Positions 3,508 to 56,923 of a stretch of 64,000 nt of DNA are shown here, in pieces. A program made the translations under genes and the position numbers. The notes beneath the pieces were generated by a model, which had not been told where the DNA came from, searched no databases, and saw only the letters and a program-made list of their open reading frames with translations. Each line of letters begins with the position of its first letter. Position 1 is the first letter of the stretch. This stretch comes from Desulfovibrio sp. JY (lineage in GTDB: Bacteria > Desulfobacterota > Desulfovibrionia > Desulfovibrionales > Desulfovibrionaceae): the NCBI GenBank assembly GCA_021730285.1, contig CP082962.1, positions 1,984,001-2,048,000 of the forward strand. Reading direction: 5' to 3'.

Positions 3508-4023
3508 ATGAGCGATCGTACCGGACTGATCACCTTTCTCGGCAATGGCCTGACCCTTTCCGGCAATCCCGTCGGCGTCGGCGACGCGGCTCCGGATTTC
3601 ACCGTTTTGACCAACGAACTGGCCCCGGCCAAGCTGGCTGACTTCACGGAAAAAGGGCTCATCCTCATCGCCGTGCCGTCCCTCGATACCGCCGTGTGCG
3701 ACCTGGAAGCCCGCAAATTCAACAAGGAAATGGAAAGCCTGACCGGCAAGGCCAAGGCGCTCGTCATCAGCATGGACCTGCCCTTTGCCCAGAAACGCTG
3801 GGCCGAGGCCGCCGGAGTGAAAAATATCGTGACGCTGTCCGACCACCGCGACGCTTCCTTCGGCACGGCCTATGGCCTGCTCATCAAGGAACTGCGCCTG
3901 CTTTCCCGCGCCGTGCTGGTCGTCGGCCCGGACCGCAAGGTCGCCTACATGGAGCTTGTGCCCGAGGTGACCAACGAGCCCGACTACGCCGCCGCCCTTG
4001 CGGCTCTTGGGAAGGTCCTGTAG
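3508..4023 (+). CDS. tpx: Thiol peroxidase, one-cysteine variant
   Basis: 171 aa; strong RBS AGGAGG at 3492-3497 fixes the start. Tpx reduces hydrogen peroxide and alkyl hydroperoxides in the cytoplasm. The peroxiredoxin active-site segment PSLDTAVCD is present with Cys64 as peroxidatic residue, followed by RKFN, DLPFAQKRW and a C-terminal NEPDYAAAL, all Tpx-specific. In E. coli Tpx the resolving cysteine lies just after LPFAQSRF; here that segment reads RWAEAAG and Cys64 is the only cysteine in the protein. Recycling must therefore use an external thiol or another partner. Relevant to oxidative defence in an anaerobe. Confidence 0.95.
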   Translation: MSDRTGLITFLGNGLTLSGNPVGVGDAAPDFTVLTNELAPAKLADFTEKGLILIAVPSLDTAVCDLEARKFNKEMESLTGKAKALVISMDLPFAQKRWAEAAGVKNIVTLSDHRDASFGTAYGLLIKELRLLSRAVLVVGPDRKVAYMELVPEVTNEPDYAAALAALGKVL

Positions 4024-9933: not shown

Positions 9934-11895
9934 ATGCTCGATCCCATGCGGAAATACGCCCAGTCCTGGGGCATCAAGATCGTTTTCGGCTTGATCATCC
10001 TGGTCTTCGTCTTTTGGGGCGTGGGCAGCTTCCAGGGCGACAAGGCCACGGTGCTCGCCACCATCGACGGCCAGCCCGTGCTGATCAAGGACTATGAGAA
10101 GGCCTACAAGGAAGGCCTGCGCCTGGTCAAAAACAAGAATCCCAACATCACGGACAAGGAGCTTCAGGACGGAGGCTTCCGCTGGCAGGTCTTCAGCAAC
10201 ATGGTGACCAGCCGGCTGCTGGAAGCCCAGGCCAAAAAGCTCGGCGTGTCCGTTTCGGCCGAGGAACTGCGGGCGGAAATCGCCAAGATTCCGGCCTTCC
10301 AGGACAAGTCCAAGAAGTTCGACGCCAAGCGCTACGAAAACATCCTGCGGGCCAACGAAGTGACCCCGGGCGAGTTCGAGGCGGACTTCCGCCAGAATCT
10401 GCTGCTCGAGAAGCTGGCCGCCTTCGTCAGCCTGCCGGCGTCGGTATCCGAGGCCGAGGCCCGCTCCATTTTCGATTTCATGCGCGAGCAGGCCGTCATC
10501 AAGTACATCCTGTTCAAGGCCGAGGATTTCGACAAGGGCATCAACCCCACCGACGAACAGATCAAGGCCTACTACGAGGCCCGCAAGGACCAGTTCGCCA
10601 CCCCGGCCAAGATCAAGATCGACTACGTGGAATTCACGCCCAAGGCCCTGGCCGAGCCCGACCAGGTGTCCGATGCCGACGTCGAGGCCTACTACAAGGC
10701 CAATCAGAAAAAATACGCCCGGCCCGAGCAGGTCAAGGTGCGCCATTTCCTCATCATGCTGCCGGCCGACGCGCCCCAGTCGGCGGTCGACGCGGCCACG
10801 GCCAAGCTCAAGGACATCGCGGCCAAGCTCAAGGCCGGTGCTGATTTCGCTTCGCTGTTGCCCAAAAATCCCAACAATGCCGAGGGGCTTATCGGCGAGG
10901 ATTGGGCCTGGTTGCCCAAGGGCAGCCTGCCCAAGGAATTCGGTCCCTTCGAGGAAAAGGCGTTTTCGCTGAAAAACGGCGAGATCAGCCAGCCCGTGCG
11001 CACGGCGCTTGGCCTGCACCTCATCCAGGCCGGCGAACGGCAGGCGGCCGGCGAGCGTCCCCTGTCCGAGGTCAAGGACGACATCCGCGAGGAGCTGGCC
11101 GAGCGCAAGGCGTCGGACAAGCTGACCAAGTCCCTGGACAACATGCAGGACAAGATCGCCTCGGGCGAGGACCTGGGCAAGGCGGCCGCGGCCGAGAAAC
11201 TGCCGGTCAAAAGCGCGGACTTTTTCAGCAAGGACAATCCCCCGGTGGACCTCGGCCTGTCCGATCAGGCCCTTGGCGTGCTTTTTTCCATGAAAAAGGG
11301 CGCCGCTTCCGATACGCCGCTGTCCACCCAGGACGGCTTCCTGCTGGCCCGGGTGACGGACATCCAGCCGGCCGGTTTCCAGTCCCTGGACAACGTCAAG
11401 GAGGCGATCAAGCAGCGTCTTGTCGCCGACGAGGCGCAAAAGCGCGCCCGGGCCAAGGCCGACGAAACGGCCAAGGCCTTGGAGACTCCGGCCGGGGAGC
11501 AGAAGGTCCTGGCCGAGTACAAGGACAAGATCGCCACGTCCCAGCCGTTTAGCCGCCAGGGCTTCATCCCGGGCCTTGGCATGGCGCCGGTGCTGGTCCA
11601 GACGGCCTTCGAGGCCAAGGGGCCGGGCTGGTTCAAGGCCGCCTATGCCGTGACCGGCGGGTTCGTGCTGGCCAGCCTGGACAAGAAGATCCCGGCCGCT
11701 GCCGCCTTGTGGGACAAGGAGAAGGATCGCTGGCTGGCGACGTTGTCCCAGTCCAAGCAGTCCGAGCTCTTCAAGGCCTACCTGGCTACGGTGCAGCAGG
11801 GGGCCAAGATCGAGATCGTCAACCAGGATATCCTGGGGCCCCAGCCGGGCGCGCCGGCGACCGGCGCGGCGGAACAGGCCAAGCCCAAAAAGTAG
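9934..11895 (+). CDS. ppiD: Peptidyl-prolyl isomerase / periplasmic chaperone PpiD-like (SurA_N-like domain)
   Basis: 653 aa. One N-terminal membrane anchor (GIKIVFGLIILVFVFWGVGSF, ~13-33) places the rest in the periplasm. Residues ~40-200 match the SurA-N/PpiD chaperone region (VLATIDGQPVLIKDYEKAY). A parvulin PPIC domain spans ~262-365 with QVKVRHFLIM, LPKEFGPFEEKAFSLKNGEIS and TALGLHLIQAG. The remainder is a long charged C-terminal region. PpiD assists folding of proteins leaving Sec. GAGGAGA precedes the ATG. Ends with a clear terminator. Length is close to E. coli PpiD (623). Confidence 0.93.
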   Translation: MLDPMRKYAQSWGIKIVFGLIILVFVFWGVGSFQGDKATVLATIDGQPVLIKDYEKAYKEGLRLVKNKNPNITDKELQDGGFRWQVFSNMVTSRLLEAQAKKLGVSVSAEELRAEIAKIPAFQDKSKKFDAKRYENILRANEVTPGEFEADFRQNLLLEKLAAFVSLPASVSEAEARSIFDFMREQAVIKYILFKAEDFDKGINPTDEQIKAYYEARKDQFATPAKIKIDYVEFTPKALAEPDQVSDADVEAYYKANQKKYARPEQVKVRHFLIMLPADAPQSAVDAATAKLKDIAAKLKAGADFASLLPKNPNNAEGLIGEDWAWLPKGSLPKEFGPFEEKAFSLKNGEISQPVRTALGLHLIQAGERQAAGERPLSEVKDDIREELAERKASDKLTKSLDNMQDKIASGEDLGKAAAAEKLPVKSADFFSKDNPPVDLGLSDQALGVLFSMKKGAASDTPLSTQDGFLLARVTDIQPAGFQSLDNVKEAIKQRLVADEAQKRARAKADETAKALETPAGEQKVLAEYKDKIATSQPFSRQGFIPGLGMAPVLVQTAFEAKGPGWFKAAYAVTGGFVLASLDKKIPAAAALWDKEKDRWLATLSQSKQSELFKAYLATVQQGAKIEIVNQDILGPQPGAPATGAAEQAKPKK

Positions 11896-40393: not shown

Positions 40394-41272
40394 TCAGATC
40401 GGCCCGATGGAGCGCAAGAGGACCCAGCCCGCGGCCAGGACCAGCAGCGCGATCTCCCGGGAAACCGACGGCCGGGTGGCGGCCCAGGCCGCCAGAATGC
40501 CGATCAGTACGGCGTCGGACATGGATGCCGCCTGTCCCAGCGGATGGGCGAGCATCCAGAACACGGTCAAAAGCCCGGCGTTGACCAGCTTGATCTTGCG
40601 GCCGAGGTTGACCATATCCCAACGCTTGAGCCGGCGCAGCACATGGAATCCTTCCCGGTAGCCGGCTCGAAATGTCGCCGCCTTGAAGACCTGGGCCGCC
40701 AGGAACAGGCCGCTCGCGAGAATGCCCAGGGCGACGTAGCGGCCCCCGGCCACCAGACAGGCGGCGGACAGCCCCCACAGGCCCATGACGCTGGCGGAAA
40801 AAAACGTGTCGCCAATGGCGGACAGGGTGAATGCCGTCGTGGTCTTGACGTTGTCAAGCATTTCGGCCGGCAGAATCCCCTTGGCGATTTTGGCCTCCAG
40901 GGACAGAAACAGCCCGACCAAAAGCGGCGTCCAGAAAAAATGGGTGTTGTACAGGTCGAGGTAGCGGGCGAACACGGCGTCGCGTTTGTCCGGGTCGGGA
41001 TACAAAACCGTCAGTCCCGGCTCCATGGCGTAGGCCAGCCCCACGTGCTGCAACCCGCGCGTGTTGTAGGCGGCGCCGACCAGGTAGCAACGCAGGAAAC
41101 AAGCCGAAAGCGTCCTGGCGCTCAACTCTTCGCGTAAGTCCCCCAAACACGCACCGCCTTTCCGCGTGCCGGCCGGTTTGCCCGGTCGAAACCTCGCCAG
41201 CGGGGCCACGTCGTTCGCCGCGCCCCCTGCCTTTTTCCCATACGGATAAACGATAGGCGGGGTTCTGGTCAA
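40394..41272 (-). CDS. Mannose-family PTS IID subunit, orphan
   Basis: 292 aa. IID proteins are the membrane partner of IIC in mannose-type permeases. Seen: FLRCYLVGAAYNTRGLQHVGLAYAMEP (IID N-terminal signature), LDLYNTHFFWTPLL, AIGDTFFSASVMG and C-terminal hydrophobic stretches. The N-terminal ~50 residues are an extra polar region. No IIA, IIB or IIC gene is present: the upstream neighbour, overlapping by 4 bases, is a small glycosyltransferase. Whether it works in transport or as a regulator is open. Confidence 0.88.
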   Translation of the reverse strand: MTRTPPIVYPYGKKAGGAANDVAPLARFRPGKPAGTRKGGACLGDLREELSARTLSACFLRCYLVGAAYNTRGLQHVGLAYAMEPGLTVLYPDPDKRDAVFARYLDLYNTHFFWTPLLVGLFLSLEAKIAKGILPAEMLDNVKTTTAFTLSAIGDTFFSASVMGLWGLSAACLVAGGRYVALGILASGLFLAAQVFKAATFRAGYREGFHVLRRLKRWDMVNLGRKIKLVNAGLLTVFWMLAHPLGQAASMSDAVLIGILAAWAATRPSVSREIALLVLAAGWVLLRSIGPI

Positions 41273-41937
41273 ACGGTGCGGTCAGGAAGGCGCGCCAGAA
41301 ACCGGCCGAAGGGCGTGTCGTCGAGGCGGGCCCGCCAGGGCGGGGCGGCGAGACGGGCCAGATCGTCCGGGGTGTCGCAGTCCGGCAGCTCGGGGAGAAG
41401 CGCCAGGCTTTTTCCGGCCGCGGCCAGCCGGACCCGCGTCAGGGAGGCGACCGTTGCCGTGCTCCAGGGCATGTCCGTAAATATTTCCGGGCAATAGCCG
41501 GCGCGGGTCAGCCCCAGGGCATAGTAGCCGCCGTCGGTTGCCGGGCCGAGCACGGCGTCGTTTCCGGCAAGCTTCCGGGCCGCCCGGACAAGGAGCGGGC
41601 CGGTGACAAGCGGTAGGTCGCTGCCGAGCAGCACGGCGGCGTCGGCTTCCCGAAGCGTGGCGGTGAAGGCGGCGGCCATGCGCGCGCCGAGGTCCCCGTC
41701 CGACTGGGCGCGGCAGGTCCGGTCCGGCCCGCACAGTCGCCGCAGCGCCTCCAGCTCTCCGGCCGGCGTATAATAGAGGATGGTGGGCAGCCCCGAGGCG
41801 TCGGCCGCCTCCAGCACGCCCTCGACCATGGCCCGGTAGGCGGCCAGGGCGGCCGCGTCGCCGATGCCGGCGGCAAGCCGCGTCTTGACCCGGCCGGGCA
41901 GGGGGGCCTTGCAGAAAACGAGCAGGCGCACGTCCAC
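41269..41937 (-). CDS. TIGR04282/DUF2064-family glycosyltransferase-like protein
   Basis: 222 aa from a GTG at 41937, 5 bases after the stop of the next upstream gene. Nucleotidyl/glycosyl transferase GT-A fold: LLVFCKAPLPGRVKTRLA at the start, LLGSDLPLVTGPLL (metal-binding D-x-P loop) and LGPATDGGYYALGL. This family pairs with TIGR04283 GT2 enzymes, as it does here, often under the label arsenosugar biosynthesis. No arsenic genes are seen nearby. Last 4 bases overlap the IID start. Confidence 0.82.
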   Translation of the reverse strand: MDVRLLVFCKAPLPGRVKTRLAAGIGDAAALAAYRAMVEGVLEAADASGLPTILYYTPAGELEALRRLCGPDRTCRAQSDGDLGARMAAAFTATLREADAAVLLGSDLPLVTGPLLVRAARKLAGNDAVLGPATDGGYYALGLTRAGYCPEIFTDMPWSTATVASLTRVRLAAAGKSLALLPELPDCDTPDDLARLAAPPWRARLDDTPFGRFLARLPDRTV

Positions 41938-41942
41938 GGCCG

Positions 41943-42704
41943 CTACCGTGTCCCCGGCCGGTCCGTGTCCGGCGTCGGGGGGTAGTGCTTGGCGAGCCTG
42001 CCCGGGGACACGCCCAGGCTGTAGAGCGTCAGCAGGGCCAGGTTGCGGGCCGTGGTCCGAAAAGTCCCCTCGGCCTCCCAACGCCTGGCCGAGGTGGTGG
42101 CGTGGGTCGGCAGGACGGCGATCCTACCCCCGGCCCGCCTGACGGCGCGCACGAGCGCCACGTCCTCCATGATGGGGATGTCCGGAAACCCGCCCAGGGC
42201 GCAGAAGAGGTCGTGCCGCAGGAACTGGGCTTGGTCGCCGTAGGGCAGGTCGAACCACTTCGAGCGCAGGGTGGCCCCGGCGGCGACCAGTCGCAGCCAG
42301 GGATTTTTCGAGCGGATGGCCAGGGAGAAGGCACCGAGGGCGGCGCCCGCGTCGAGGGCTCTGGCCGCGTCCTCGAAGGCCCGGGCCGGAAGCCTTGTGT
42401 CGGCGTGCAGGAAAAGCAGGCGCTCGCCCGAGGCGACAGCCACCCCGGCGTTGCACTGGCTGGCCCGGCCCCGGGGCGCGGTCAGGCCCAGCACGCCCTC
42501 GCGGTCGAGGGCAGTCAGCGTCGAACCGGCCGGATCGCCGTCGACTACCACGATCTCCACGGACAGGCCGTAGCCGACCATGCGCACGTGGTCCACCAGG
42601 GCGTTGATGCGCCGCGCCTCCCCGAGGACGGGCGTTATGACCGAAAAAAAAGGGCGCCCCAGGCAGGGCGGGGCCAGGCTGACCTGACCGGGAGGGAGCC
42701 GCAT
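41943..42704 (-). CDS. TIGR04283-family GT2 glycosyltransferase
   Basis: 253 aa. GT-A fold: SVITPVLGEARRINALVDHV, EIVVVDGDPAGST, APRGRASQCNAG, LFLHADTRLP (metal-binding D), LPYGDQAQFLRHDLF and MEDVALVRAVRRAG. Start at 42704 is the first Met with family homology; the RBS is weak. Forms a two-gene pair with the DUF2064 protein. Probably makes a small glycosylated metabolite or lipid; the acceptor is unknown. Divergent from the deoxysugar operon, so it may belong to the same surface-glycan locus. Confidence 0.87.
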   Translation of the reverse strand: MRLPPGQVSLAPPCLGRPFFSVITPVLGEARRINALVDHVRMVGYGLSVEIVVVDGDPAGSTLTALDREGVLGLTAPRGRASQCNAGVAVASGERLLFLHADTRLPARAFEDAARALDAGAALGAFSLAIRSKNPWLRLVAAGATLRSKWFDLPYGDQAQFLRHDLFCALGGFPDIPIMEDVALVRAVRRAGGRIAVLPTHATTSARRWEAEGTFRTTARNLALLTLYSLGVSPGRLAKHYPPTPDTDRPGTR

Positions 42705-42820
42705 GGGGTGCAATAGATTTTTTCGGCGGAAACCGCTAGGGTCCGCCGATGTCGTACGCGATTGCAACTTCCCTCCACGACGGACGTCGTTTCCGCTTCG
42801 GCGGAGTCTGGCGATAGCCC

Positions 42821-43612
42821 ATGCTTGAAGCCGAATACGCGACCATGTTCGCGGCCGAGGAGACCCACTGGTGGTACCGGGGCCTGCACGATCAGGTGCG
42901 CCGGGCCGTTGCCCATTGCCGCGAGGACGCACCCGGGCCGCTTCGGGTGCTCGACGCCGGCTGCGGCACGGGCAAGGTGCTGGAAGCGCTCGCCGCGGAC
43001 AAGGCGACCGGCCTGGACCTCTCGGCCACGGCGCTTGCCCTGGCCCGTCGCCGGGGGGATTTCCCCCTCACCCGGGCCTCAGCCGTGAGCCTTCCTTTTC
43101 GGGACGCCAGCTTCGACGTGGTCCTCTCCCTGGATGTCCTGGCCAACGTGTCGCCGTCGGCCGTGATCCCGGCCCTGGCCGAGGCCCGCCGCGTGCTGGT
43201 CCCCGGGGGGCGGCTTGTCCTTAATATCGTCGCCCACCAGGCCCTTTACAGCGAACACGACCGGGCCGTCGGGGTGCAGCAGCGCTATACGACCCGGCAG
43301 ATCCGGTCTTTCTTGGGTTCGGCCGGCTTTTTCGTCGAAAAGCTGACCTATTCCAACACGCTGCTTTTCCCCATCGCCGCCCTGGTGCGGCTTTGGCGCA
43401 AGCGTAACCGGCCGGGCCATGCGCCGCGCTCGGATCTTGCGCCGCTGCCCCCGCGCCTCAACGCCGCCCTGGCCCGGGCGCGGTTTGTGGAAAACGCCCT
43501 CATGGTGGACTATGGCTTTGCCATGCCTTTCGGGCTGTCGGTTTTCGCCATGGCCAAAAATCCCGTCGGACCGGCGCGGCCGTGGTCCGGCCGGAGTCGT
43601 ACACGAGCATGA
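42821..43612 (+). CDS. Class I SAM-dependent methyltransferase
   Basis: 263 aa. Motif I LRVLDAGCGTGKVLEAL (~40-57), acidic ATGLDLSATALALA, motif post I FDVVLSLDVLANV and late RVLVPGGRLVLNIVAHQAL. The N-terminal EETHWWYRGLH and the C-terminal hydrophobic stretch are typical of methyltransferases in polyprenyl-glycan loci. First gene of a six-gene run; stop overlaps the next ATG (ATGA). Could methylate a deoxysugar or lipid-linked intermediate. Confidence 0.88.
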   Translation: MLEAEYATMFAAEETHWWYRGLHDQVRRAVAHCREDAPGPLRVLDAGCGTGKVLEALAADKATGLDLSATALALARRRGDFPLTRASAVSLPFRDASFDVVLSLDVLANVSPSAVIPALAEARRVLVPGGRLVLNIVAHQALYSEHDRAVGVQQRYTTRQIRSFLGSAGFFVEKLTYSNTLLFPIAALVRLWRKRNRPGHAPRSDLAPLPPRLNAALARARFVENALMVDYGFAMPFGLSVFAMAKNPVGPARPWSGRSRTRA

Positions 43613-44577
43613 ATCCGGAACCTTCGCCCTCGCTTACCATCGTCATTCCCGTCTACAACGCCGAAGCCACCATCGGCCGGCTGGTGCGTGTGCTCCTGGC
43701 CGATCCGCCGCTGCCGGGCACCGACATCGTGCTGGTCAACGACGGCAGCCGCGATAGGAGCCACGAGGTCTGTCTCGAGTGCTGCGAGGCTTTTCCCGGC
43801 CGGGTCACCTACCTGCGCCTGGCCCGCAATTTCGGCGAACACAACGCCGTCATGGCCGGACTGCGCCAGTCCGGCGGGGACTGGGTCGTGGTCATGGACG
43901 ACGATTTTCAAAATCCCCCGGAGGAGATCGCCCGGATCGTGGCGGCGGCCCGCGACGGCGGGTTCGACGTGGTCTACACCGCCTTCCGGGAAAAGCGCCA
44001 CGGCCGGCTGCGCAATCTGGGCAGCGCCTTCAACGACAAGGTGGCCACCCTGCTCCTCGACAAGCCGCCGCGCCTGTACCTGTCGAGCTTCAAGTGCTTA
44101 AGCCGCTTTCTGGTGGACCGCATCGTGGACTATACCGGTCCCGCGCCCTATATCGACGGCCTGATTTTGCGCGCCACGAACAATATCGGCCAGGTGGAGG
44201 TGGAGCACCGCGACCGGGAGGCCGGCCAGTCCGGCTACACCTTGTGGAAGCTCGTGCGACTGTGGCTGACCATGTTCGTCAATTTTTCCGTGGCCCCGCT
44301 GCGTGTTTCGGCGTTTCTCGGACTGGCCATGGGGGCTTTCGGCCTGCTTCTGGCCGTCTGGAGCCTGGCCGAGAAGGTTCTCGGCGTGTCCGTGCCCTCA
44401 GGCTGGACCATGCTCTACATCACGGTGATCATTTTCGCCGGGGTGCAGCTCGTGATGCTCGGGCTGCTCGGGGAATACGTCGGCCGCTCGCTCATGGAGA
44501 TCAATCGTACGCCCCAGGCCGTGGTGCGCGAGGTTCACGGCGGCGACGGCCGGCCGCCAAGGGAGGTTCGCCCGTGA
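43609..44577 (+). CDS. Polyprenyl-phosphate glycosyltransferase (GtrB/ArnC-like GT2)
   Basis: 322 aa. GT2 domain with LTIVIPVYNAEATIGRLV, IVLVNDGSRDRS, RNFGEHNAVMAGL and VVMDDDFQNPPEEI (DDD). Two C-terminal membrane helices (VSAFLGLAMGAFGLLLAVW and TMLYITVIIFAGVQLVMLGLLGEYVGR), the GtrB/ArnC/DPM1-type topology, which transfers a nucleotide sugar to undecaprenyl phosphate at the inner leaflet. In this operon it would load the deoxysugar on lipid for flipping and transfer. ATGA overlap upstream, GTGA overlap downstream. Confidence 0.9.
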   Translation: MNPEPSPSLTIVIPVYNAEATIGRLVRVLLADPPLPGTDIVLVNDGSRDRSHEVCLECCEAFPGRVTYLRLARNFGEHNAVMAGLRQSGGDWVVVMDDDFQNPPEEIARIVAAARDGGFDVVYTAFREKRHGRLRNLGSAFNDKVATLLLDKPPRLYLSSFKCLSRFLVDRIVDYTGPAPYIDGLILRATNNIGQVEVEHRDREAGQSGYTLWKLVRLWLTMFVNFSVAPLRVSAFLGLAMGAFGLLLAVWSLAEKVLGVSVPSGWTMLYITVIIFAGVQLVMLGLLGEYVGRSLMEINRTPQAVVREVHGGDGRPPREVRP

Positions 44578-44984
44578 AAAGTCCCCTCGACGGCGTGCGC
44601 CTGCTCGACGTGCCGACCGTGCGCGACGACCGGGGCGCCTTGTCCGCCCTCGAAGGCGGCTGCCACATCCCCTTTGCCGTGGCCCGGGTCTTTTACATGC
44701 ACGGCATGACCGCCGATCGGGGCGGCCACGCCCATCCGCGCACCGAACAGTGTGTGCTGGCCGTGGCCGGGTCGTTTACCGTAACGGTGACCGACGGCCG
44801 CGACACGGCGGCGTATCGCCTGGACGACCCTGCCCGGGGGCTCTACCTGCCGCCCATGGTCTTTCTCGACATCCGCGACATCAGCCCGGACGCCGTGTGC
44901 CTGGTGCTGGCCAGCACGCACTACGAACCCAAAAGCGTCATCCGCTCCCTTGACGTCTACCGCGAGGCCCTGGCCGGGGTATGA
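44574..44984 (+). CDS. QdtA/FdtA-like dTDP-hexose 3,4-ketoisomerase (cupin)
   Basis: 136 aa, GTG start in a GTGA overlap. Cupin signatures of the QdtA/FdtA/WxcM-C family: TVRDDRGALSALEG, HIPFAVARVFYM, RGGHAHPRTEQCVLAVAGSF (His residues in the active site), RGLYLPPMVFLDIRD and LVLASTHYE. Converts dTDP-4-keto-6-deoxyglucose to the 3-keto sugar for subsequent 3-amination. Stop overlaps the 2,3-dehydratase start (ATGA). Isomerase stereochemistry (galacto or gluco) cannot be predicted. Confidence 0.88.
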   Translation: MKSPLDGVRLLDVPTVRDDRGALSALEGGCHIPFAVARVFYMHGMTADRGGHAHPRTEQCVLAVAGSFTVTVTDGRDTAAYRLDDPARGLYLPPMVFLDIRDISPDAVCLVLASTHYEPKSVIRSLDVYREALAGV

Positions 44985-46402
44985 GCACCACCGCCGCGCG
45001 CCTGGCCTTTGCGCGGTCCTGCCGCGCCACCTCCGGCGTCTTTCCGGACATGGAGGCGGTCATGGCCTGGTTTGCGACCAAGGACCGCCGCGACCGTTTC
45101 GAGGTGCGCCGCGTGCCCCTTGCCGCACTGGATCAGTGGGACTTTCTGCCGGCTCCCCTGCGCCTGGGGCACAGCTCCGGCAAGTTCTTCACCATCGAGG
45201 GCATCCGGGTCGAGACGGACTTCGGCCCGGTCCCGTCCTGGGACCAGCCCATCATCAACCAGCCCGAGGTCGGCATCCTGGGCCTTCTCGCCCGGGAAAT
45301 CGACGGCGTGCTCCATTTCCTCATGCAGGCCAAGATGGAGCCGGGCAACGTCAACGTGCTCCAGCTTTCCCCCACGGTTCAGGCCACGCGCAGCAACTAT
45401 TCCCGGGTTCACGGCGGCCATGCCTCGCGCTACCTGGAATATTTCACCGAGCCGGGCCTGGCCACGGTGCTCCTCGACCAGCTCCAGCCCGAGCAGGGGG
45501 CCAGATTCCTGCGCAAGCGCAACCGCAACATGGTCGTGCTCGTTTCCCACGACGTGCCGGTGCACGAGGATTTCGCCTGGATGACGCTCGGCCAGATCAA
45601 GGCCCTGCTTGCCTGCGACAACCTCGTCAACATGGACGCCCGCACCGTGGTGTCGCTCATTCCCCTGGCCGATCCCGACGAGCCGCCGGACGCGTCCCGC
45701 CTCGAGGGCCTGTCGCCCTTCCGCCGCGACGTGTACCTGTCCTTTTGCCGCTCCGATCGCGAGCGCCACACCATGGACGCGGTCATGGGCTGGCTGACCA
45801 AGGGCAAGGCGGCCACTTCCATGCGCGTTTCGTCCCTGCCCCTGGACAGCCTTCGCGGCTGGACCGTGGCCGAGGACGCCATCCGCCACGAAACCGGACT
45901 GTATTTTTCCGTCATCGGCGTGGATGTCACGGCCCATACCCGCGAGGCCACGCGCTGGTCCCAGCCGCTGCTTCACCACGAAGGCCTGGGACTGGTCGGC
46001 TTTTTGTGCCAGAGCCAGTGGGGCGTGCTGCATTTCCTGGTCCGGGGGAGCCTCGAGCCCGGCAACCGCGACGGCATGGAGATCGGCCCCACCGTGGCCT
46101 GTTCGGAGGTGGCGACTCGGTCCGGCCGGGCCTGCGCCCCGCAGTTCCTGGAATATTTCCTTGATTCCGCTCTCGGCGCGGTGCGCTACGACGCCGTCCA
46201 GTCCGAGGAGGGCGGGCGCTTCCATCATTTCCAGAATCGCTATATGATTGTGGAAATTTCTCCGGGTACGGTCGTGGACACGCCCGGCCATTACCTGTGG
46301 CTGACCCTTGGCCAACTGTGGCGCATGGCCCGCCACGGCCACGTCAATATCGAGGCCCGCAACCTGCTTGCCTGCATGGGGGCCGTGGAGCGCAGGTCAT
46401 GA
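44981..46402 (+). CDS. NDP-hexose 2,3-dehydratase
   Basis: 473 aa, matching the EvaA/TylCVI family in length. The protein is an internal duplication: residues ~30-225 and ~255-455 share RVPLAALDQWDF/SLPLDSLRGWTV, WDQPIINQPEVGIL/WSQPLLHHEGLGLV, DGVLHFLMQAKMEPGN/WGVLHFLVRGSLEPGN and HASRYLEYF/APQFLEYF. The enzyme eliminates water from C2-C3 of dTDP-4-keto-6-deoxyglucose to give the 3,4-diketo-2,6-dideoxy sugar. Common in actinomycete antibiotic sugars, uncommon in sulfate reducers. ATGA overlaps both sides. Confidence 0.9.
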   Translation: MSTTAARLAFARSCRATSGVFPDMEAVMAWFATKDRRDRFEVRRVPLAALDQWDFLPAPLRLGHSSGKFFTIEGIRVETDFGPVPSWDQPIINQPEVGILGLLAREIDGVLHFLMQAKMEPGNVNVLQLSPTVQATRSNYSRVHGGHASRYLEYFTEPGLATVLLDQLQPEQGARFLRKRNRNMVVLVSHDVPVHEDFAWMTLGQIKALLACDNLVNMDARTVVSLIPLADPDEPPDASRLEGLSPFRRDVYLSFCRSDRERHTMDAVMGWLTKGKAATSMRVSSLPLDSLRGWTVAEDAIRHETGLYFSVIGVDVTAHTREATRWSQPLLHHEGLGLVGFLCQSQWGVLHFLVRGSLEPGNRDGMEIGPTVACSEVATRSGRACAPQFLEYFLDSALGAVRYDAVQSEEGGRFHHFQNRYMIVEISPGTVVDTPGHYLWLTLGQLWRMARHGHVNIEARNLLACMGAVERRS

Positions 46403-47340
46403 AGCTGCTTGTCTGTGGCGGTTCGGATATCTTCGCCCGCCGCGTCTTGCCCGGCCTGCCCGGGCTTGGCGTTACGGCCGTGGACGTGGCCTCGCGAAGC
46501 GGCCGCCGCATGGAAAGCCCGCCGGGCCTGCCCCTGCGCTTTTTTGGCGACCCCGAAGCCGCCCTGGCCGCAAGCGACGCCGAGGCCGTCTACGTGACCA
46601 CGGAAAACAGCCGGCATGCGCCGCTGGCCCTGGCCGCCCTGGCCTCCGGCCGCCACGTCATCGTGGACAAGCCCGCCTTTCTCGACCTCGCCACCGCCGA
46701 GAAAGCCTGCGACTTGGCCGCGCAAAAAAATCTCCTTCTGGCCGAAGCCACGGTCTGGGCCGAGCATCCCCGCGTCGCCGGCCTGGCCCAGGCCTTTGCC
46801 GACAGAAACACCGCCCCGGCGCGCATCGTCGCCACCTTCTCCTTCCCGCCGCTGCCGCCGGAAAATTTCCGCCACCGCCCCGAACTCGGCGGCGGCGCGC
46901 TTTTCGACCTCGGCCCCTATGCCGTCAGCCCCGGCCGCGTCCTTTTCGGCATCGAGCCCGAGGAGGTCGTCTGCCGCATAACCTCGCGCGGCCCGGCCGT
47001 GGAAACGGCCTTCACCTGTCTGCTCGTCTACTCCGGCGGCCGAACCCTGGCCGGCACCTTTGGCTTCGACACCGGCTACGTCAATCGCCTGGGCGTCCTC
47101 GGCCCCGGCCTCGCCGCCTCCATGGACCGGGCCTTCACTCCGCCGCCAAGCGCCACTCTGCCCCTTTCCTGCAACACCCCCCAAGGCGTACGATCCGTCG
47201 ACTTCGAGCCCGCCGATGCCTTTGCCCGCTTTTTTACCCGGGCCTTTGCCGCCATGGAGCGCGGCGACGGCGAGGCCTTTATCGCCGCGCTGCTCTCCGA
47301 CGCGCGCATGCTGGCGCGGCTGCGGGCGAGCGCCGGGTAA
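46399..47340 (+). CDS. Gfo/Idh/MocA-family oxidoreductase (sugar 3-ketoreductase candidate)
   Basis: 313 aa; ATGA overlap with the dehydratase. Rossmann start KLLVCGGSDIFARRVLPGL (a GG.dif variant of GxGxxG), EAVYVTTENSRHAPLALAALASGRHVIVDKP with the catalytic Lys of the EKP motif, and C-terminal sheet GGGALFDLGPYAV. After 2,3-dehydration a 3-ketoreductase of this family normally makes the 2,6-dideoxy-4-keto sugar (as TylC1), so the step fits. Ends the overlapping block; then a 423-base gap with repeat copy C. Confidence 0.85.
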   Translation: MKLLVCGGSDIFARRVLPGLPGLGVTAVDVASRSGRRMESPPGLPLRFFGDPEAALAASDAEAVYVTTENSRHAPLALAALASGRHVIVDKPAFLDLATAEKACDLAAQKNLLLAEATVWAEHPRVAGLAQAFADRNTAPARIVATFSFPPLPPENFRHRPELGGGALFDLGPYAVSPGRVLFGIEPEEVVCRITSRGPAVETAFTCLLVYSGGRTLAGTFGFDTGYVNRLGVLGPGLAASMDRAFTPPPSATLPLSCNTPQGVRSVDFEPADAFARFFTRAFAAMERGDGEAFIAALLSDARMLARLRASAG

Positions 47341-47400
47341 GGCGGGTAAGGCTGGCTGGGAGGAGATGGGGAGACTGGGGCGCTGCCCCAGACCCCGCCG

Positions 47401-47600
47401 GGAGGCCACGGGCCCCCCGGACCCCCCGTCCGGTGTGCTTTGGCTGGGCGGGGGAGGGATGGTTGCCGGTAAGGCGGAGAGTGGAGAAGATGGAGGCGGA
47501 ATTTGTCGGGACGGTGCATGTCGCTTCGCGACAAGCTCGTCCCAAGCAAATTCCGCCTCCACCACGCCGTCGCCCCTTCGGGGCGAAAGGATAAGGAATT
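47401..47600 (+). repeat. Structured intergenic repeat, copy C
   Basis: Direct copy of the 5941-6130 element. C/G-rich box GGGCCCCCCGGACCCCCCGTCCGG at ~47410, outer stem 47492-47560 (GGAGGCGGAATTTG / CAAATTCCGCCTCC), inner hairpin GTCGC-TTC-GCGAC at 47520-47532, and CGCCCC-TTC-GGGGCG at ~47572-47585. Inserted in the deoxysugar operon between the reductase and aminotransferase genes; a short AT-rich segment (47599-47637) follows. Confidence 0.85.
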
Positions 47601-47677
47601 TTTTTAACTATTGAAAATACAATAGTTTAAAGTAGTTGGCTACAACCCTTTAGAAGTTTTTGGGGAGGGTGGGGGGC

Positions 47678-47727
47678 CCGGGGGGCGGGAACCCTTTTTT
47701 ACCAAAAAAAGGGTTCCCGCCCCCCGG
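47678..47727. terminator. Hairpin repeat (family member 9)
   Basis: CCGGGGGGCGGGAACCCTTTTTT pairs with AAAAAAAGGGTTCCCGCCCCCCGG around ACC; near-perfect ~23-base arms. Upstream flank AAGTTTTTGGGGAGGG. It lies 36 bases before the aminotransferase ATG, so the aminotransferase may be expressed from its own promoter or by read-through. Confidence 0.85.
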
Positions 47728-47763
47728 TTCCTCTCTCCGCTCCTCTCCTCACAAGGAACGACT

Positions 47764-48876
47764 ATGGCGGTCAATGTTTGGGGATATTTGAAGGAATATG
47801 AAGCGGAGCGGGAGGAGATCTTGGCCGCCGTTACCGCTGTTTTGGAGTCGGGCAAGCTGATTTTGGGGCCGCATGTGGCGGCTTTTGAGGAAGCGTTTGC
47901 CGGCTATTGCGGGACGCGTTTCGGCGTGGGTTGCGACAACGGCACGAGCGCGGTGCTGTTGGCGCTGTTGGCGGTGGGGATACAGCCCGGCGACGAGGTG
48001 ATCACCGTTGCCAATACGGCCGTGCCCACGGTTTCGGCCATTGTCAGCGCCGGGGGCGTGCCCCGGTTCGTGGATATCGACCCGGCCACGTATCTGATGG
48101 ACGCGGCCAAGCTGGAAGCGGCCGTGACCCCGCGCACCAAGGCCATTGTGGCCGTGCATCTCTTTGGCCAGTGCGTGGCCATGGAAGCCGTGCGGGAAGT
48201 GGCCGAGCGCCACGGGCTGCGCGTGGTGGAAGATTGCGCCCAGGCCCATGGCGCGGTGCGAAACGGTCAGGTGGCCGGCTCCATGTCCGACGCGGCCTCG
48301 TTTTCCTTTTATCCGACCAAAATCCTCGGCACCTACGGCGACGGCGGCATGGTGTTGACGGGAAGCGAGGAGACGGCGGCCAAGCTCAAGCGCCTGCGTT
48401 TCTACGGCATGGAAAAGACCTATTACGCCCTGGAGCACGGCTACAATTCGCGCCTGGACGAGATCCATGCCGCCATATTACTGGGCAAGCTCAAGCACCT
48501 GCCGGAGTATCTCGCCCGCCGGCGGCAGCTGGCCGCGCGCTACGACGCCGCTCTGGCCGACACGTCGCTGACCCTGCCGGCCGTGGCTCCCGGCAACGAG
48601 CACGCCTATTATCTGTACGTGGCGCGTCACGAAAAACGCGACGCCGTGATCGCCGGGCTCAAGGAGCGGGGCGTCAACGTCAACATCAGCTACCCCTGGC
48701 CCATCCACACCATGACGGGCTATGCCCATTTGGGCTATAAGGAGGGCGACCTGCCCGAAACCGAGCGGGCGGCGCGGGAGATTTTCTCCCTGCCCATGTA
48801 CCCGTCGCTGTCCGATGCCGAACAGGATACGGCCATCGCCGCCCTGCGCGACACCCTGGACGCGGTCGGGGCCTAA
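47764..48876 (+). CDS. DegT/DnrJ/EryC1/StrS-family sugar aminotransferase
   Basis: 370 aa. PLP-dependent transamination of keto sugars. PLP-binding lysine Lys186 in SFYPTKILGTYGDGG, with GTSAVLLALLAVGIQPGDEV, VEDCAQAHGA and late NVNISYPWPIHTM that shapes the sugar site. 3-Amination fits the QdtA/FdtA and EvaA neighbours (FdtB/EvaB-like). AAGGAA near the ATG. Separated from the rest of the operon by a repeat and a hairpin. Confidence 0.93.
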   Translation: MAVNVWGYLKEYEAEREEILAAVTAVLESGKLILGPHVAAFEEAFAGYCGTRFGVGCDNGTSAVLLALLAVGIQPGDEVITVANTAVPTVSAIVSAGGVPRFVDIDPATYLMDAAKLEAAVTPRTKAIVAVHLFGQCVAMEAVREVAERHGLRVVEDCAQAHGAVRNGQVAGSMSDAASFSFYPTKILGTYGDGGMVLTGSEETAAKLKRLRFYGMEKTYYALEHGYNSRLDEIHAAILLGKLKHLPEYLARRRQLAARYDAALADTSLTLPAVAPGNEHAYYLYVARHEKRDAVIAGLKERGVNVNISYPWPIHTMTGYAHLGYKEGDLPETERAAREIFSLPMYPSLSDAEQDTAIAALRDTLDAVGA

Positions 48877-48894: not shown

Positions 48895-49320
48895 GTGGAA
48901 TTCGGCGCCATCGCTTTGGCCATTATGGCCGCTTTTACCGGCGCGGCCCTGTATATCAACATCGTCGAGCATCCCGCCCGGCGCGTTTTCCTGGATGCCG
49001 ACATGCTGGCCCAGTGGCAGCGCAGCTACCCAAGAGCCAGGCGGATGCAGGCTTCCCTGGTCATGGCCGGCTTCTTTTTCGGCATGGTCGGGCTCCTCTG
49101 GACGGGCAAGGGGCTGTATCTGACGGGCTCGCTTTTCACCTGCGCCATCTGGGTGGTGACGCGCAAGTGGATCATGCCCCTCAATAACACGCTCATGGCG
49201 ATGAACTCCGATGACGCCAATGCCGACACCCGGGCGCTTCTGGAGAAGTGGAACATTCTCCACGTCGTGCGTGCGGGGCTCGGCATCCTGGCCGTATTGA
49301 GCTTCTTTGCCGCGCTTTAG
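48895..49320 (+). CDS. DUF1772-family membrane protein
   Basis: 141 aa from a GTG at 48895 with AAGGAG upstream. Four hydrophobic helices; IVEHPARR near residue 22 and W at ~42 plus KWIMPLNNTLMAM match DUF1772 (anthrone-oxygenase-like). Function unknown. Directly follows the aminotransferase (18 bases), so it is probably cotranscribed with it although a role in sugar synthesis is not evident. Confidence 0.8.
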   Translation: MEFGAIALAIMAAFTGAALYINIVEHPARRVFLDADMLAQWQRSYPRARRMQASLVMAGFFFGMVGLLWTGKGLYLTGSLFTCAIWVVTRKWIMPLNNTLMAMNSDDANADTRALLEKWNILHVVRAGLGILAVLSFFAAL

Positions 49321-52824: not shown

Positions 52825-55800
52825 TCAGAATTTGAGAATGGTGGTCAGAAACAGGGCGTTGATGACGTTTTCCCTGTCCGTGACCTTGGTTTTGTTGAAA
52901 AGCGTCCCGTACTTGTATTGCAGCAGGAATTCCAGGGACGACCGCTCGACCTCGTAGTCGGCGCGGTTGAAGAGGTATTTGAATGACAACCCGCCGCCGC
53001 CTTCCACATAGGACGACTCGTTGAGGTCCGGCGACCAGACCCGCACGTCGGCCACGACGTGGGGCGTGATGAGAAACCGGTCGCGGACGTTGAACGAGAT
53101 GCCCTGCCGGCCTTCGGCGTAAAACATGCTGCGCGGGTCGTTTTCGGTGTAGTAGTCGTATTCGCCGTAGAAGTACGAGTAGTTCCAGTATTTTTCTTTC
53201 GGTTTGACGTCGTAGCCGTCGGTCAGGGAATACATGGCCCGCAGCAGCCAGTTGTCCTCGGCCGCCTTGCCGAGTTTGAACAGCCGCTCGACGCCGACGT
53301 TGAGGTTCTGGGTCTTGAAAGGCTTGTAGCGCAGTCCCGCCGCGCCCTGCCAGGACTTGTCGTCGATTTCCAGGCTGTCCTTGTTGAAGCTGGCCGTCGC
53401 CCGGCCGATGACCTGGAGGATGCGGTCGTCGCGAAAGCCGATCTTGGGCGGAATCCAGGCGAACTCCGCGCCGGCCCCGGAGCGGATGGTGTCCATGGAG
53501 TCGCCCCCGGAGGAGGGCAGCGGCCCGGCGTCTCCGGCGATGTAGGACATGTAGGCCGTGGTGGTGAAGTGCGTCTCCAGCTTGGTCACTTCCTTGCGCA
53601 TCCGGTAGACGTCCTTGTCCAGCTTTTCCCGGTCTTCGGGGCTGTCCACCGGGCGCAGCGGCGCGTTGTCGATGGCGCGCTTGAAGCGGTCCACGGATTT
53701 CGTGTTGTCGCACTCGTGCATGTAGGCGTAGCCGAGGTCCTCCCACAGATGCAGGTAGTCCGGGTCGCGGTGGAGCACGGTCTCGAACACCTCGGCCGCC
53801 GCGGCGTACTGCTTGTCCTCGCTTAAGGCGTAGCCCAGGGCGGTCAGGTAGCGGTTGGCGTCGTCGAGCTTCACGGCCCGGCGGTAGGCCTCGATGGCTT
53901 CCTTGAGGTGCTTCGCGTCGCGCAGCACGTTGCCGAGGCGAAATTCCGTGTCGGCGTCGGCTTTGATGGCCAGCGAGGCTTCGAGGAACTTGCGGGCCGT
54001 ATCGTAATCCTTGTCCGCCTCGGCCAGGGAGGCCAGTTCGGACAAGCGCAGGACTTGCAAGTCCGGGGGGAGCGTTGCCGGGTCCACGGCTTCGAGGGTC
54101 TTTTTGGCTTCCTCGGGATGGCCGGCCAGCCGTTCCAGACGCCCGAGCCGCGTGGCCGTTTCCGGATCGTAGCCGAGTGCCAGGGTGGCCTTGAAGGCGG
54201 CGATGCCGGCTTCGTTGCGGGATTCCCCGGCGTAGAGGAAGCCCTTGGCCCGGTAATAGGCGCGGCGGTCCTGTGGCGACAGGGAGGAAATATCCGGGGT
54301 GGCTTTGTCGAAATCGACCAGAGCCAGGCCCGGCTTGCCGAGCTTTTCGTAGCAGCGGGCCATGGCGATGCGGGTGGCCGGGTCGGGATGGAGGGCCAGG
54401 GACTGGGAAAAGGCGTCCAGACCTTCCTGGTAGCGGCCGGTTGTGTAGGCGATCTGGCCCAGGGCGGACAGCACCCGCCAGTTGGGACCGGAGAGGACCA
54501 GGGCGCGGCGGAAGGCCTTTTCGGCGGCGGGCAGATCGCCGGCCCGGGTCAGGGCGTAGCCGAGATTTTCCTCGGAAGCGGCGATGTCGCTTCGAAGCGC
54601 CCCGGGCGCGGCGGCCGCCTGTCGCCAGAAGGCGATGGCTTTTGGGGCGTTGCCCAAGGTGCCGTAGGCCTGGGCCAGGGTCATGATGGCCTTGGCCTTG
54701 CGCGAGCCGTTGTCCATGAGGCCAAGGGCCTGGGTCAGGGGTGCTATGGCCTTGGCCGGCCGGCCCGAAAGCGCGGCCGCGGTGCCGAGGCCCAGGGCGA
54801 TTTCCGCCTGTTTGTCCCGGGGCAGGTTCGAGGCCAGGCGCGAGGCCTGCTCGAAGGCGTCGTAGGCCTTGGCGGCGTTTTTCCGGCTGGCGTAGACATT
54901 GCCGAGGGCGAGCAGGGCTTCGGCCTTGTCGGCGGGGCTTACGTCCTGGCGCGTAAAGGCCTCGAGGCTGGCGATGGCGTCCTTGTCCATGTCGGCGGCG
55001 GCGAAGCTTTCGCCGGCCTGACGCAACAGGGTGGGTTGCCCGGACGCGGCCAGTTCCTGGAAAATGGGGGCGGCCTCGGCGTTGCGGCCCAGGCGCGAGA
55101 GCAGGTTGGCCACGGCCAGGCGGTAGGCGGCGCGCTTTTGCGGGGTCGCGGCCTTCTCGACCAGGGTTTTGTAGATGCCAAGCGCCCGTTCGGCCTGCCC
55201 GTCCTTGACGAGCGCTTCGGCCAGGGACGCCTGGATATCCTGCCCCGCGCCGGCCGAGAGGGCCTGGGTGAAGGCGGCCACGGCCGCCGGGGCGTCGCCC
55301 AGGCGCAGGCAGGTTTCGCCAAGCTGGGCCAACAGCCGGGCCTTGTCCGCGCCCGGAGCTTTGAGCGCGTCCTCCAGGACTTTGCGGGCGGCGGCGTTGT
55401 CGCCGGTTTCGGCCAAAAGCGTGGCCTTCATGGCCAGGATGCGGGTGCGCTGGGCCGGGTCCTTGGCTTCGTTCAGGGCCTTGTCGAGATAGGTGATGGC
55501 GGCGGCATTCTTGTCGAGCTTGGTGAGCAGTGTCGCCAGTTCGAGCAGGCTGTCCGGGTCCGCGCCCATGCTCACGGCCTCGTGCAGCGCCTGGGCGGCT
55601 TCCTGGGTGCGCCCCGCGCGCTCTTCGGCCCGGGACAGCCGGACCAGGGCCAGGGGCTCGCGGCGCAGGTCCACGGCGGCACGGAAATAGACGGCCGCTT
55701 CCCCGGGTTTGCCCGCCTGCATGGCCAGCACGCCCAGGCGCATGTTGAGGCGGTAGGCCTCCTTGGGCTTGGGCTTTTGGGCCAAAAGCGGCGTCAGTTC

Positions 55801-56751
55801 GGCGGCGGCGGCGTCGTAACGCTTGAGCGACGCCAGGACGTTGGCCAAAAAGAGCTTGTTTTCCAGGGTGGGGGCCAGCCGCGTCAGTTCCTGACCCAGG
55901 CGGGCGGCCTCCTCGAACCGGCCGGCCTTGTTGGCCAGGACGGCCTGCTGCTGCAAAAGAACGGGATCGCCTGGGGCCAGGCGCTGGGCTTCGGTCAGAT
56001 ACGCGCCGGCCTTTTGCGCATCGCCCGCGTCCGCGCTGGCCACGGCCAGGGCGCGCAGGGTGGCGAGTTTTTCCTTGTCGTTGCCGGCGGCGGCCAGGGC
56101 GTGGGTAAAGGCCTGGATCGACTGGACATTGTCGCCCATTTTCGCCAACAGCACGCCCTTGGCCTGCTTGAGGGCGTAGTCTCCTTCGGTCTCGGGCAGG
56201 CTGGAGAGCAGGGATAGGGCTTCCTGCAAGCGCCCCAGCTTCGCCAGCACGTCGGCCGTGGCCAAAACGGCCACGCGGTGGGGCACGGGCTTGTCCTTGG
56301 TCAGGGACACGGCCTGCTCCATGGGGGCGACGGCGGATTTGAGGTCGCCGGCGCGCATGAGGCAAAGGCCCGAGGTGAGCAGGGCGGAGGCGTCGTCGGG
56401 TTTGGCCGCCAGGATGCGATGGGCTTCGGCCATGGCCGCGTCGTAGCGGCCCAGGTCGTAGAGCAGGTCCATGTAATCGCCGCGCGCGGCAAGGTCGTCC
56501 GGCTGGATGCGCAGATAAAGCTCGAATTCCTTTTGCGCCTCCTCGCGCCGGTTCTCCTTCATGCGGCGGTAGGCCATGTCCAGATGCGGATAGGCCTTGA
56601 AATGCGACAGCTGCCTGCCGATCCAACTCTTGCCTTTTCCGTCGGTAGCCCCGACTTCATGGGCATTTCCCGCGGCCAGGGCCTGTCCGGCCGCGAGGCA
56701 GAGGACCAGGAGGGGCAGGACGAAAAGAATACGGCAGCGGGTGCTTTGCAT
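52825..56751 (-). CDS. nfrA: NfrA-like outer-membrane TPR/beta-barrel secretin-type protein
   Basis: 1308 aa; ATG at 56751 by the signal peptide (RILFVLPLLVLCLAAGQALA). Residues ~60-1060 are a long array of TPR-like helix pairs (e.g. EEARRLGQELTRLAPT, DPETATRLGRLERLAG). The last ~230 residues are beta-barrel strands (SFNVRDRFLITPHVVADVRVW, YLFNRADYEVERSSLEFLLQY) ending in Phe, the outer-membrane signature, and match the N4-adsorption NfrA C-terminal region. It would be the exit channel of the NfrB-made polysaccharide. E. coli NfrA is shorter (~990). Named by analogy with the locus. Confidence 0.82.
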   Translation of the reverse strand: MQSTRCRILFVLPLLVLCLAAGQALAAGNAHEVGATDGKGKSWIGRQLSHFKAYPHLDMAYRRMKENRREEAQKEFELYLRIQPDDLAARGDYMDLLYDLGRYDAAMAEAHRILAAKPDDASALLTSGLCLMRAGDLKSAVAPMEQAVSLTKDKPVPHRVAVLATADVLAKLGRLQEALSLLSSLPETEGDYALKQAKGVLLAKMGDNVQSIQAFTHALAAAGNDKEKLATLRALAVASADAGDAQKAGAYLTEAQRLAPGDPVLLQQQAVLANKAGRFEEAARLGQELTRLAPTLENKLFLANVLASLKRYDAAAAELTPLLAQKPKPKEAYRLNMRLGVLAMQAGKPGEAAVYFRAAVDLRREPLALVRLSRAEERAGRTQEAAQALHEAVSMGADPDSLLELATLLTKLDKNAAAITYLDKALNEAKDPAQRTRILAMKATLLAETGDNAAARKVLEDALKAPGADKARLLAQLGETCLRLGDAPAAVAAFTQALSAGAGQDIQASLAEALVKDGQAERALGIYKTLVEKAATPQKRAAYRLAVANLLSRLGRNAEAAPIFQELAASGQPTLLRQAGESFAAADMDKDAIASLEAFTRQDVSPADKAEALLALGNVYASRKNAAKAYDAFEQASRLASNLPRDKQAEIALGLGTAAALSGRPAKAIAPLTQALGLMDNGSRKAKAIMTLAQAYGTLGNAPKAIAFWRQAAAAPGALRSDIAASEENLGYALTRAGDLPAAEKAFRRALVLSGPNWRVLSALGQIAYTTGRYQEGLDAFSQSLALHPDPATRIAMARCYEKLGKPGLALVDFDKATPDISSLSPQDRRAYYRAKGFLYAGESRNEAGIAAFKATLALGYDPETATRLGRLERLAGHPEEAKKTLEAVDPATLPPDLQVLRLSELASLAEADKDYDTARKFLEASLAIKADADTEFRLGNVLRDAKHLKEAIEAYRRAVKLDDANRYLTALGYALSEDKQYAAAAEVFETVLHRDPDYLHLWEDLGYAYMHECDNTKSVDRFKRAIDNAPLRPVDSPEDREKLDKDVYRMRKEVTKLETHFTTTAYMSYIAGDAGPLPSSGGDSMDTIRSGAGAEFAWIPPKIGFRDDRILQVIGRATASFNKDSLEIDDKSWQGAAGLRYKPFKTQNLNVGVERLFKLGKAAEDNWLLRAMYSLTDGYDVKPKEKYWNYSYFYGEYDYYTENDPRSMFYAEGRQGISFNVRDRFLITPHVVADVRVWSPDLNESSYVEGGGGLSFKYLFNRADYEVERSSLEFLLQYKYGTLFNKTKVTDRENVINALFLTTILKF

Positions 56752-56923
56752 AGTGCGGTCCACGTATGGCCTGGGTTGGTACGGCGGGGCCATGTTTATA
56801 AAGCAAGAACCAGTCCAACGTCTCGTTGGCTGTATCTAACCGGAAATGAAGGGACAATATCGAGAGGGGGCGGCTGCCGCATCCCTCCCGTTTGTCTGAT
56901 TCAATCCCCGCCCCGTGTCCGTA

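Follow-up and report, generated by a model that had tools for sequence, protein, structure and literature searches.

Gene organization of the locus

Within the window, a 64,000-nucleotide stretch of the Desulfovibrio sp. JY genome (one contig of 4.69 Mb), we analysed a gene cluster at 42821-48876, all on the plus strand, that combines a predicted 3,4-ketoisomerase of the FdtA type with a predicted 2,3-dehydratase of the EvaA type. The cluster starts with an S-adenosylmethionine (SAM)-dependent methyltransferase of the Methyltransf_11 class (42821-43612; PF08241, 2e-20) and a family 2 glycosyltransferase (GT2) resembling the polyprenyl-phosphate enzymes GtrB and ArnC (43609-44577, ATG start at 43609; Glycos_transf_2, PF00535, 3e-30). 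These are followed by the putative FdtA/QdtA-type deoxythymidine diphosphate (dTDP)-sugar 3,4-ketoisomerase, a cupin of an EvaA-linked clade (44574-44984, GTG start; PF05523, 5e-34), the putative EvaA-type dTDP-4-keto-6-deoxyglucose 2,3-dehydratase (44981-46402; Hexose_dehydrat, PF03559, 9e-143) and a Gfo/Idh protein resembling sugar 3-ketoreductases (46399-47340; GFO_IDH_MocA, 5e-12). Four overlaps of 4 nucleotides (nt) each, ATGA, GTGA, ATGA and ATGA in this order, join the five genes into one unit. The DegT/StrS aminotransferase, nearest to 3-keto-sugar enzymes of the QdtB type (47764-48876; PF01041, 3e-114), stands outside this unit, separated from the Gfo gene by a gap of 423 nt (47341-47763). 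An earlier reading of the DNA (the sequence-only reading) had listed these genes in this order with their ATGA and GTGA overlaps, and all of them are present. It had also placed two sugar routes, isomerase with aminotransferase and dehydratase with reductase, in one overlapping unit, which holds for the isomerase, the dehydratase and the Gfo protein and not for DegT, which comes after the gap.

A repeat search located a 34-nt imperfect and a 23-nt perfect inverted repeat in the gap. The perfect repeat, at 47678-47727, belongs to a dispersed repeat: a 61-nt query around it gave 46 matches in the genome, with both strands of the palindrome counted and 40 of 74 candidates scored. Because its repeat is a dispersed element, the gap upstream of DegT looks secondary in origin.

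Identities of the pathway enzymes

The cupin matches PF05523 with 117 bits, against a cut-off of 23, and the solved FdtA structure 2pa7 with an E-value of 6e-22. Its RGGHAH motif aligns with RGFHAH and contains the histidine pair that is altered in the structures 2pae and 2pak. These matches support a 3,4-ketoisomerase of the FdtA type. The dehydratase consists of two PF03559 stretches, i.e. a duplicated Hexose_dehydrat domain, and aligns over nearly its full length with the EvaA structure 4j7g (E 3e-113). Its Glu120 and Glu171 align with Glu139 and Glu190 of EvaA, mutation of which abolishes activity (PMC8987622), in support of an EvaA-type 2,3-dehydratase. By the matches of both proteins, non-sugar cupin or Nudix families were ruled out. 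Each of the two proteins is the only one of its family, PF05523 and PF03559 respectively, found in the genome.

The best match of the Gfo protein in the PDB is 3rbv, a ‘Sugar 3-ketoreductase’ (E 4.5e-27) that we take to be KijD10. Lys91 and Tyr174 align with a Lys and a Tyr of 3rbv that are presumably catalytic, the Lys being altered in the aligned entry 3rcb. The comparison supports a sugar 3-ketoreductase-like enzyme.

DegT carries the pyridoxal phosphate lysine (Lys186) and has its best PDB matches in 7b0d (named glutamine--scyllo-inositol transaminase), QdtB (3frk), 2oga, which we take to be DesV, and WbpE. DesV and WbpE have been termed C3-aminotransferases (PMC7725333). In a DegT tree built by a quick method from 32 chosen loci, with matches of at least 250 residues, the DegTs of the set join those of L014, L045 and L062 (94), then that of L140 (96), and then QdtB, 2oga and 7b0d (SH-aLRT 96). 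L014, L045 and L062 are actinobacterial loci with EvaA nearby and no FdtA, and since these closest outside DegTs sit near EvaA, the DegT of the set appears tied to 2-deoxy sugars. Their neighbours include genes for nucleoside diphosphate-sugar activation (by family in L045 and L062, by eye in the list of open reading frames in L014) and, in L062, an EryCIII-like glycosyltransferase; when we searched these neighbours for the identity of an angolosamine cluster, the genes seen did not settle the product. DegT is the most conserved enzyme of the pathway (64-70% outside the genus, by which we mean Solidesulfovibrio in all counts). Its matches and placement support a QdtB-like C3 aminotransferase. 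As an observation apart, DegT is present twice within a short distance in genome G274 (L137:6-881 and 2682-3782), both copies falling in the same clade; one of them may serve another position or sugar.

The precursor genes are encoded elsewhere in the genome, rmlA at 679758-680612 (492 bits) and rmlB, with rmlD adjoining, at 4078091-4079053 (462 bits), both above curated cut-offs, so that a missing precursor supply was ruled out. The sequence-only reading had staked its interpretation on the cupin and the dehydratase belonging to sugar families and on the presence of rmlA and rmlB, and in all of this it is borne out; by family matches, its assignments of the methyltransferase, glycosyltransferase, cupin, dehydratase, Gfo protein and DegT were right as well.

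Distribution and conservation of the set

In the named collection, the closest relatives of the dehydratase come from Solidesulfovibrio and Desulfovibrio records, and we assign the genome to Solidesulfovibrio. Thirteen of 14 genus genomes contain PF03559, as do 10 of the 395 phylum genomes, the present one included; among listed family members outside the genus the count is 0 of 16, although L007 and L008 (Pseudodesulfovibrio; records named as Desulfovibrionaceae) do have EvaA. FdtA lies directly upstream of EvaA in all 13 EvaA-bearing genus genomes (the window and 12 fetched loci), and the order methyltransferase-GT-FdtA-EvaA-Gfo recurs in 12/12 fetched genus loci, the methyltransferase and Gfo genes of L143 being cut by contig ends. 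In all nine fetched genus loci with enough sequence beyond Gfo, DegT and a small membrane protein are present as well, and in these nine the FdtA-EvaA and EvaA-Gfo junctions overlap by 4 nt each.

Outside the genus, FdtA is directly upstream of EvaA in eight genomes, represented by L007, L008, L009, L010 (a contig of a Chloroflexi metagenome-assembled genome), L057, L132, L133 and L134. The FdtA-EvaA spacing reaches up to 264 nt where measured, and Gfo and then DegT follow EvaA wherever the contig extends. In G274 one contig carries EvaA, Gfo and DegT, and a second has a cut FdtA at its end. Locus and genome handles correspond as follows: L057 and L138 to G332, L132 to G075, L133 to G034, L134 to G039, L135 to G306, L136 to G097, L137 to G274, L139 to G360 and L140 to G025. 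Chance juxtaposition was ruled out by the recurrence of the order in 13/13 EvaA-bearing genus genomes and eight others, as far as contigs reach.

The distance from the Gfo stop to the DegT start, estimated from alignments, is 44 to 200 nt in 9/9 measured genus loci and -7 to 12 nt in 6/6 measured loci outside the genus. Because of this close spacing in relatives we count DegT as part of the set. If DegT were separate and made another amino sugar, the end product of the five-gene unit would be a 2,6-dideoxy-3-ketohexose, either as such or reduced. The 423-nt gap with its inverted repeats would fit such a division, but the spacing in relatives and the dispersed nature of the gap repeat speak against it, and we regard it as very improbable.

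Among the best 80 of 315 EvaA-related loci, 68 are actinobacterial by name and 12 are not. FdtA adjoins EvaA in 11 of the 12 non-actinobacterial loci, and the combination, which had been called unusual from the sequence alone, is to that extent less idiosyncratic than suggested; yet we found FdtA in 0/68 actinobacterial loci, using tblastn (E up to 1e-5) and a hidden Markov model of the set’s FdtAs on flanks of at most 10 kb, with some contigs shorter and the model not tried on actinobacterial Tyl1a. L069 has EvaA and no FdtA within the fetched stretch. In an EvaA tree of 41 chosen loci plus the window, which covered 20 of the 68 actinobacterial loci and excluded matches below 330 residues, 16 of 17 FdtA-linked rows group together at 92/79 with L010 apart, L137 being counted as linked via its contig end. 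All 17 form one group in just 12% of bootstrap trees.

A distinct FdtA clade linked to EvaA

The FdtA proteins encoded next to EvaA form a clade of their own. In a tree of 44 rows, made without the short rows L010 and L173, the 20 EvaA-adjacent rows (20 genomes) are one group with support 100/99. A long stem separates them from FdtA, QdtA, WlaRA and the remaining FdtAs of the phylum. With both short rows restored, 22 rows including L010 and G274 group at 96/93; nine weak matches (25 to 33 bits) were excluded from both trees.

The clade also differs in its residues, which we counted in 20 clade rows and 23 other rows, excluding L173 and the long-branched L171 and setting L010 apart. A Trp present in 23/23 others is replaced by Phe or Tyr in 20/20 clade rows (Phe97 in the window protein), and a Tyr likewise kept in all 23 is replaced by Ser or Val in all 20 (Val122). 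Position 43 is His throughout the clade (20/20), and Phe or Tyr in 21 of the 23 others, with His in one. Clade members share a two-column deletion ahead of the histidine pair, where the columns are filled in at least 21 of 23 others. His52, the first of the pair, is invariant (43/43 rows). The window protein lacks the conserved Trp and Tyr and was classed as belonging to a distinct PF05523 clade, not as FdtA or QdtA.

In a sample of 297 phylum genomes, 82 match FdtA at E 0.001 and 60 lie above the family cut-off. We drew the line for strong matches at 80 bits after the scores had been seen; below 84 bits the next score is 46. Strong FdtAs occur in 21 of these genomes, five in the clade and 16 outside it, and EvaA is present in 5/5 of the former and 0/16 of the latter (5e-5 by shuffling, with relatedness not corrected).

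The association bears on a reading in which two branches leave one precursor, FdtA and DegT making a 3-amino-3,6-dideoxyhexose of the Fuc3N/Qui3N type and EvaA and Gfo making a 2,6-dideoxyhexose, with both sugars placed in the same glycan. Up to the final step, each half would correspond to a known module; FdtA falls within the FdtA/QdtA family and DegT lies near QdtB. However, every genome of the sample that has an FdtA of the clade also has EvaA, and the clade lies apart from the FdtA and QdtA whose structures are solved. A 2,6-dideoxy branch would also need a 4-ketoreductase, and a family search of the unit detected no short-chain dehydrogenase/reductase (SDR), aldo-keto reductase or other 4-ketoreductase family among its genes, though the rest of the genome may encode one. 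With a single glycosyltransferase in the unit, and the closest outside DegTs near EvaA without FdtA, we consider two branches unlikely.

Proposed pathway

We propose instead that the set encodes one linear route, RmlB-EvaA-Gfo-FdtA-DegT, to dTDP-3-amino-2,3,6-trideoxyhexose, with no 4-ketoreductase. On the strength of the sequence comparisons we give this reading a probability of roughly 0.55, and the comparative evidence favours the 3-amino-2,3,6-trideoxy sugar that had earlier been guessed. RmlA and RmlB would supply dTDP-4-keto-6-deoxyglucose, from which EvaA would strip the C2 hydroxyl to give a 3,4-diketo-2,6-dideoxy sugar, in line with the conversion of a 4-keto sugar into a 3,4-diketone by EvaA itself (PMC8987622). 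Reduction at C3 by Gfo would yield a 4-keto-2,6-dideoxy sugar, and the dedicated FdtA-type isomerase would then move the ketone from C4 to C3, leaving a hydroxyl on C4; a figure legend says of 3,4-ketoisomerases in general that they shift the keto group among deoxy sugars (PMC8987622). Amination of C3 by DegT would complete the 3-amino-2,3,6-trideoxyhexose.

In this scheme Gfo and FdtA would jointly fill the role of the 4-ketoreductase of antibiotic pathways, and DegT would receive a 3-keto-4-hydroxy sugar as QdtB and DesV do. A C3 aminotransferase cannot act on a 4-keto-2,6-dideoxy sugar, so the ketone shift by FdtA would be what enables DegT, and a linear route would require all four enzymes and no 4-ketoreductase. 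Loading onto polyprenyl phosphate for use in a surface glycan would probably fall to the GtrB/ArnC-like enzyme, and the methyltransferase may modify the sugar. We infer the reaction order, the substrate of the isomerase and the stereochemistry. In L009 and L057, GNAT acetyltransferases are encoded close to the set, as would suit an amino sugar product.

Several observations weigh against the linear route. The Trp and Tyr that the clade has lost are kept in 23/23 compared rows, and the loss of such family-wide residues could reflect a different reaction and not a different substrate; the FdtA of L010, broken by an apparent frameshift, retains the Trp. Among NCBIfam models, DegT scores best against PseC, a 4-amino-sugar transaminase, although its 277 bits lie below the cut-off of 423. 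Co-occurrence of the genes is also compatible with two separate sugars. The converse association is weaker, since G025 and G097, within the range of the 297 genomes, carry EvaA without a strong FdtA, and in four of the 10 EvaA-bearing phylum genomes (G025, G097, G306 and G360) the fetched stretch contains no FdtA. In the FdtA-less EvaA-Gfo unit of L135 the next gene encodes an epimerase-family SDR that might be a 4-ketoreductase; the few neighbours that we searched in L136, L139 and L140 included no such SDR. L140 itself has a glycosyltransferase, a divergent EvaA, Gfo, a DegT next to the set’s clade and a methyltransferase, with no FdtA, so that the isomerase is not always required. A B12-binding radical SAM protein follows the L140 set (L140:7966-14715), which is perhaps a C-methylating variant.

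The related set of L140 also makes it possible that DegT directly aminates C3 of the EvaA 3,4-diketone, as the aminotransferase does in EvaB-type pathways. Gfo would then be a C4 reductase and FdtA an accessory protein, for instance tautomerising an intermediate or protecting the unstable diketone. The pairing of the closest outside DegTs with EvaA in the absence of FdtA would suit such a route, as would the loss of the two residues from the clade. Yet Gfo is nearest in the PDB to a sugar 3-ketoreductase, with the Lys and Tyr kept, the tree places DegT with QdtB and DesV, whose substrates are 3-keto-4-hydroxy sugars, and the FdtA histidine is invariant. We judge direct amination to be quite unlikely.

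Comparison with known pathways

One of the nearest known counterparts of the linear route through FdtA is the D-angolosamine pathway of Streptomyces (angolamycin, mayamycin, medermycin), in which a 2,3-dehydratase and a C3 aminotransferase likewise act on dTDP-4-keto-6-deoxyglucose and the product is a 3-amino-2,3,6-trideoxy-D-hexose. Here, FdtA and the Gfo reductase would stand in for the 4-ketoreductase, and the operon includes a polyprenyl glycosyltransferase. We take Tyl1a to be a relative of FdtA and ang-ORF14 to be a ketoreductase. The mayamycin proposal includes a 4-keto-6-deoxyhexose reductase (PMC10817512). The two halves are kept apart in published cassettes: the one for angolosamine contains spnO, the product of which is named a 2,3-dehydratase (PMC8987622), and no tyl1a, and the one for mycaminose contains tyl1a but lists no gene for a dehydratase (PMC4644662).

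The pathways to dTDP-Fuc3N, dTDP-Qui3N and D-mycaminose (FdtA/FdtB, QdtA/QdtB, Tyl1a/TylB) share with the operon a 3,4-ketoisomerase followed by a QdtB/DesV-type aminotransferase. Unlike the operon they have no 2,3-dehydratase, and the operon’s FdtA belongs to a separate clade. The tandem of EvaA-type dehydratase and 3-ketoreductase is found in L-digitoxose-type routes, which continue with a C5 epimerase and a 4-ketoreductase (PMC8944477, Figure 22 legend), whereas the operon has an isomerase and an aminotransferase instead. With the EvaA-E pathway to epivancosamine the operon shares an EvaA homologue that has both catalytic Glu residues. The epivancosamine aminotransferase acts on the diketone, C-methylation, epimerase and 4-ketoreductase steps come later, and no isomerase is known to take part.

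In searches of open-licence papers we recognised no description of the isomerase-dehydratase combination, which does not prove that none exists. 3-Amino-2,3,6-trideoxyhexoses are known mainly from antibiotics. Tentatively, and with slightly more doubt than confidence, we suggest that the clade comprises 3,4-ketoisomerases, of which we found no description, specialised for 2-deoxy substrates. Together with a 3-ketoreductase they would replace the 4-ketoreductase, in a new stand-alone route by which Thermodesulfobacteriota, and perhaps a Chloroflexota, would make 3-amino-2,3,6-trideoxyhexoses as lipid-linked units for their surface glycans. If so, sulfate reducers would carry antibiotic-type amino sugars in their envelope, and the compact set of four enzymes, which makes dTDP-3-amino-2,3,6-trideoxyhexoses without a 4-ketoreductase, would be useful in drug glycodiversification. 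The residue positions that distinguish the clade may then determine which substrates members of the ketoisomerase family accept.

Glycosyltransferase, methyltransferase and neighbouring genes

The glycosyltransferase matches the structures of ArnC (9bhc, E 3e-42) and sll0501 (5ekp, E 7e-37). It resembles the GtrB component of GtrA/GtrB glycan modification systems, and the GtrA flippase was not found in the genome (0 matches to PF04138). Of the earlier proposal that the sugar is attached to undecaprenyl phosphate, the ArnC/GtrB-like character of the enzyme thus stands, while the attachment is not established. In L008 a GtrA-family protein adjoins a GtrB-like enzyme (L008:3941-4504), and a sulfotransferase lies downstream of the set at 10705-11703.

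The methyltransferase aligns with the sugar N,N-dimethyltransferase structure 3pfg at just E 5e-4 across 58 residues and with CalS10 at 3e-7, its top match being a hypothetical protein (1e-10). Homologues with 33-36% identity come after DegT in L132, L134 and L140, and in L007 and L008 we found none adjoining the set. Given the weak 3pfg match and the lack of a homologue beside the set in these two loci, the methylated sugar of the sequence-only reading is not established.

Downstream of DegT lies a gene for a small membrane protein (48895-49320, plus strand; PF08592, 5e-12). It is linked to DegT within the genus, following it in 9/9 fetched loci that reach that far. Divergent from the operon, at 41269-42932 on the minus strand, are two proteins above the NCBIfam cut-offs of TIGR04283 and TIGR04282, both named arsenosugar biosynthesis glycosyltransferases. 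Further along the window, also on the minus strand, an open reading frame of 1322 residues (52825-56793) appears by eye to have many repeats of the tetratricopeptide type and an outer-membrane-like end.

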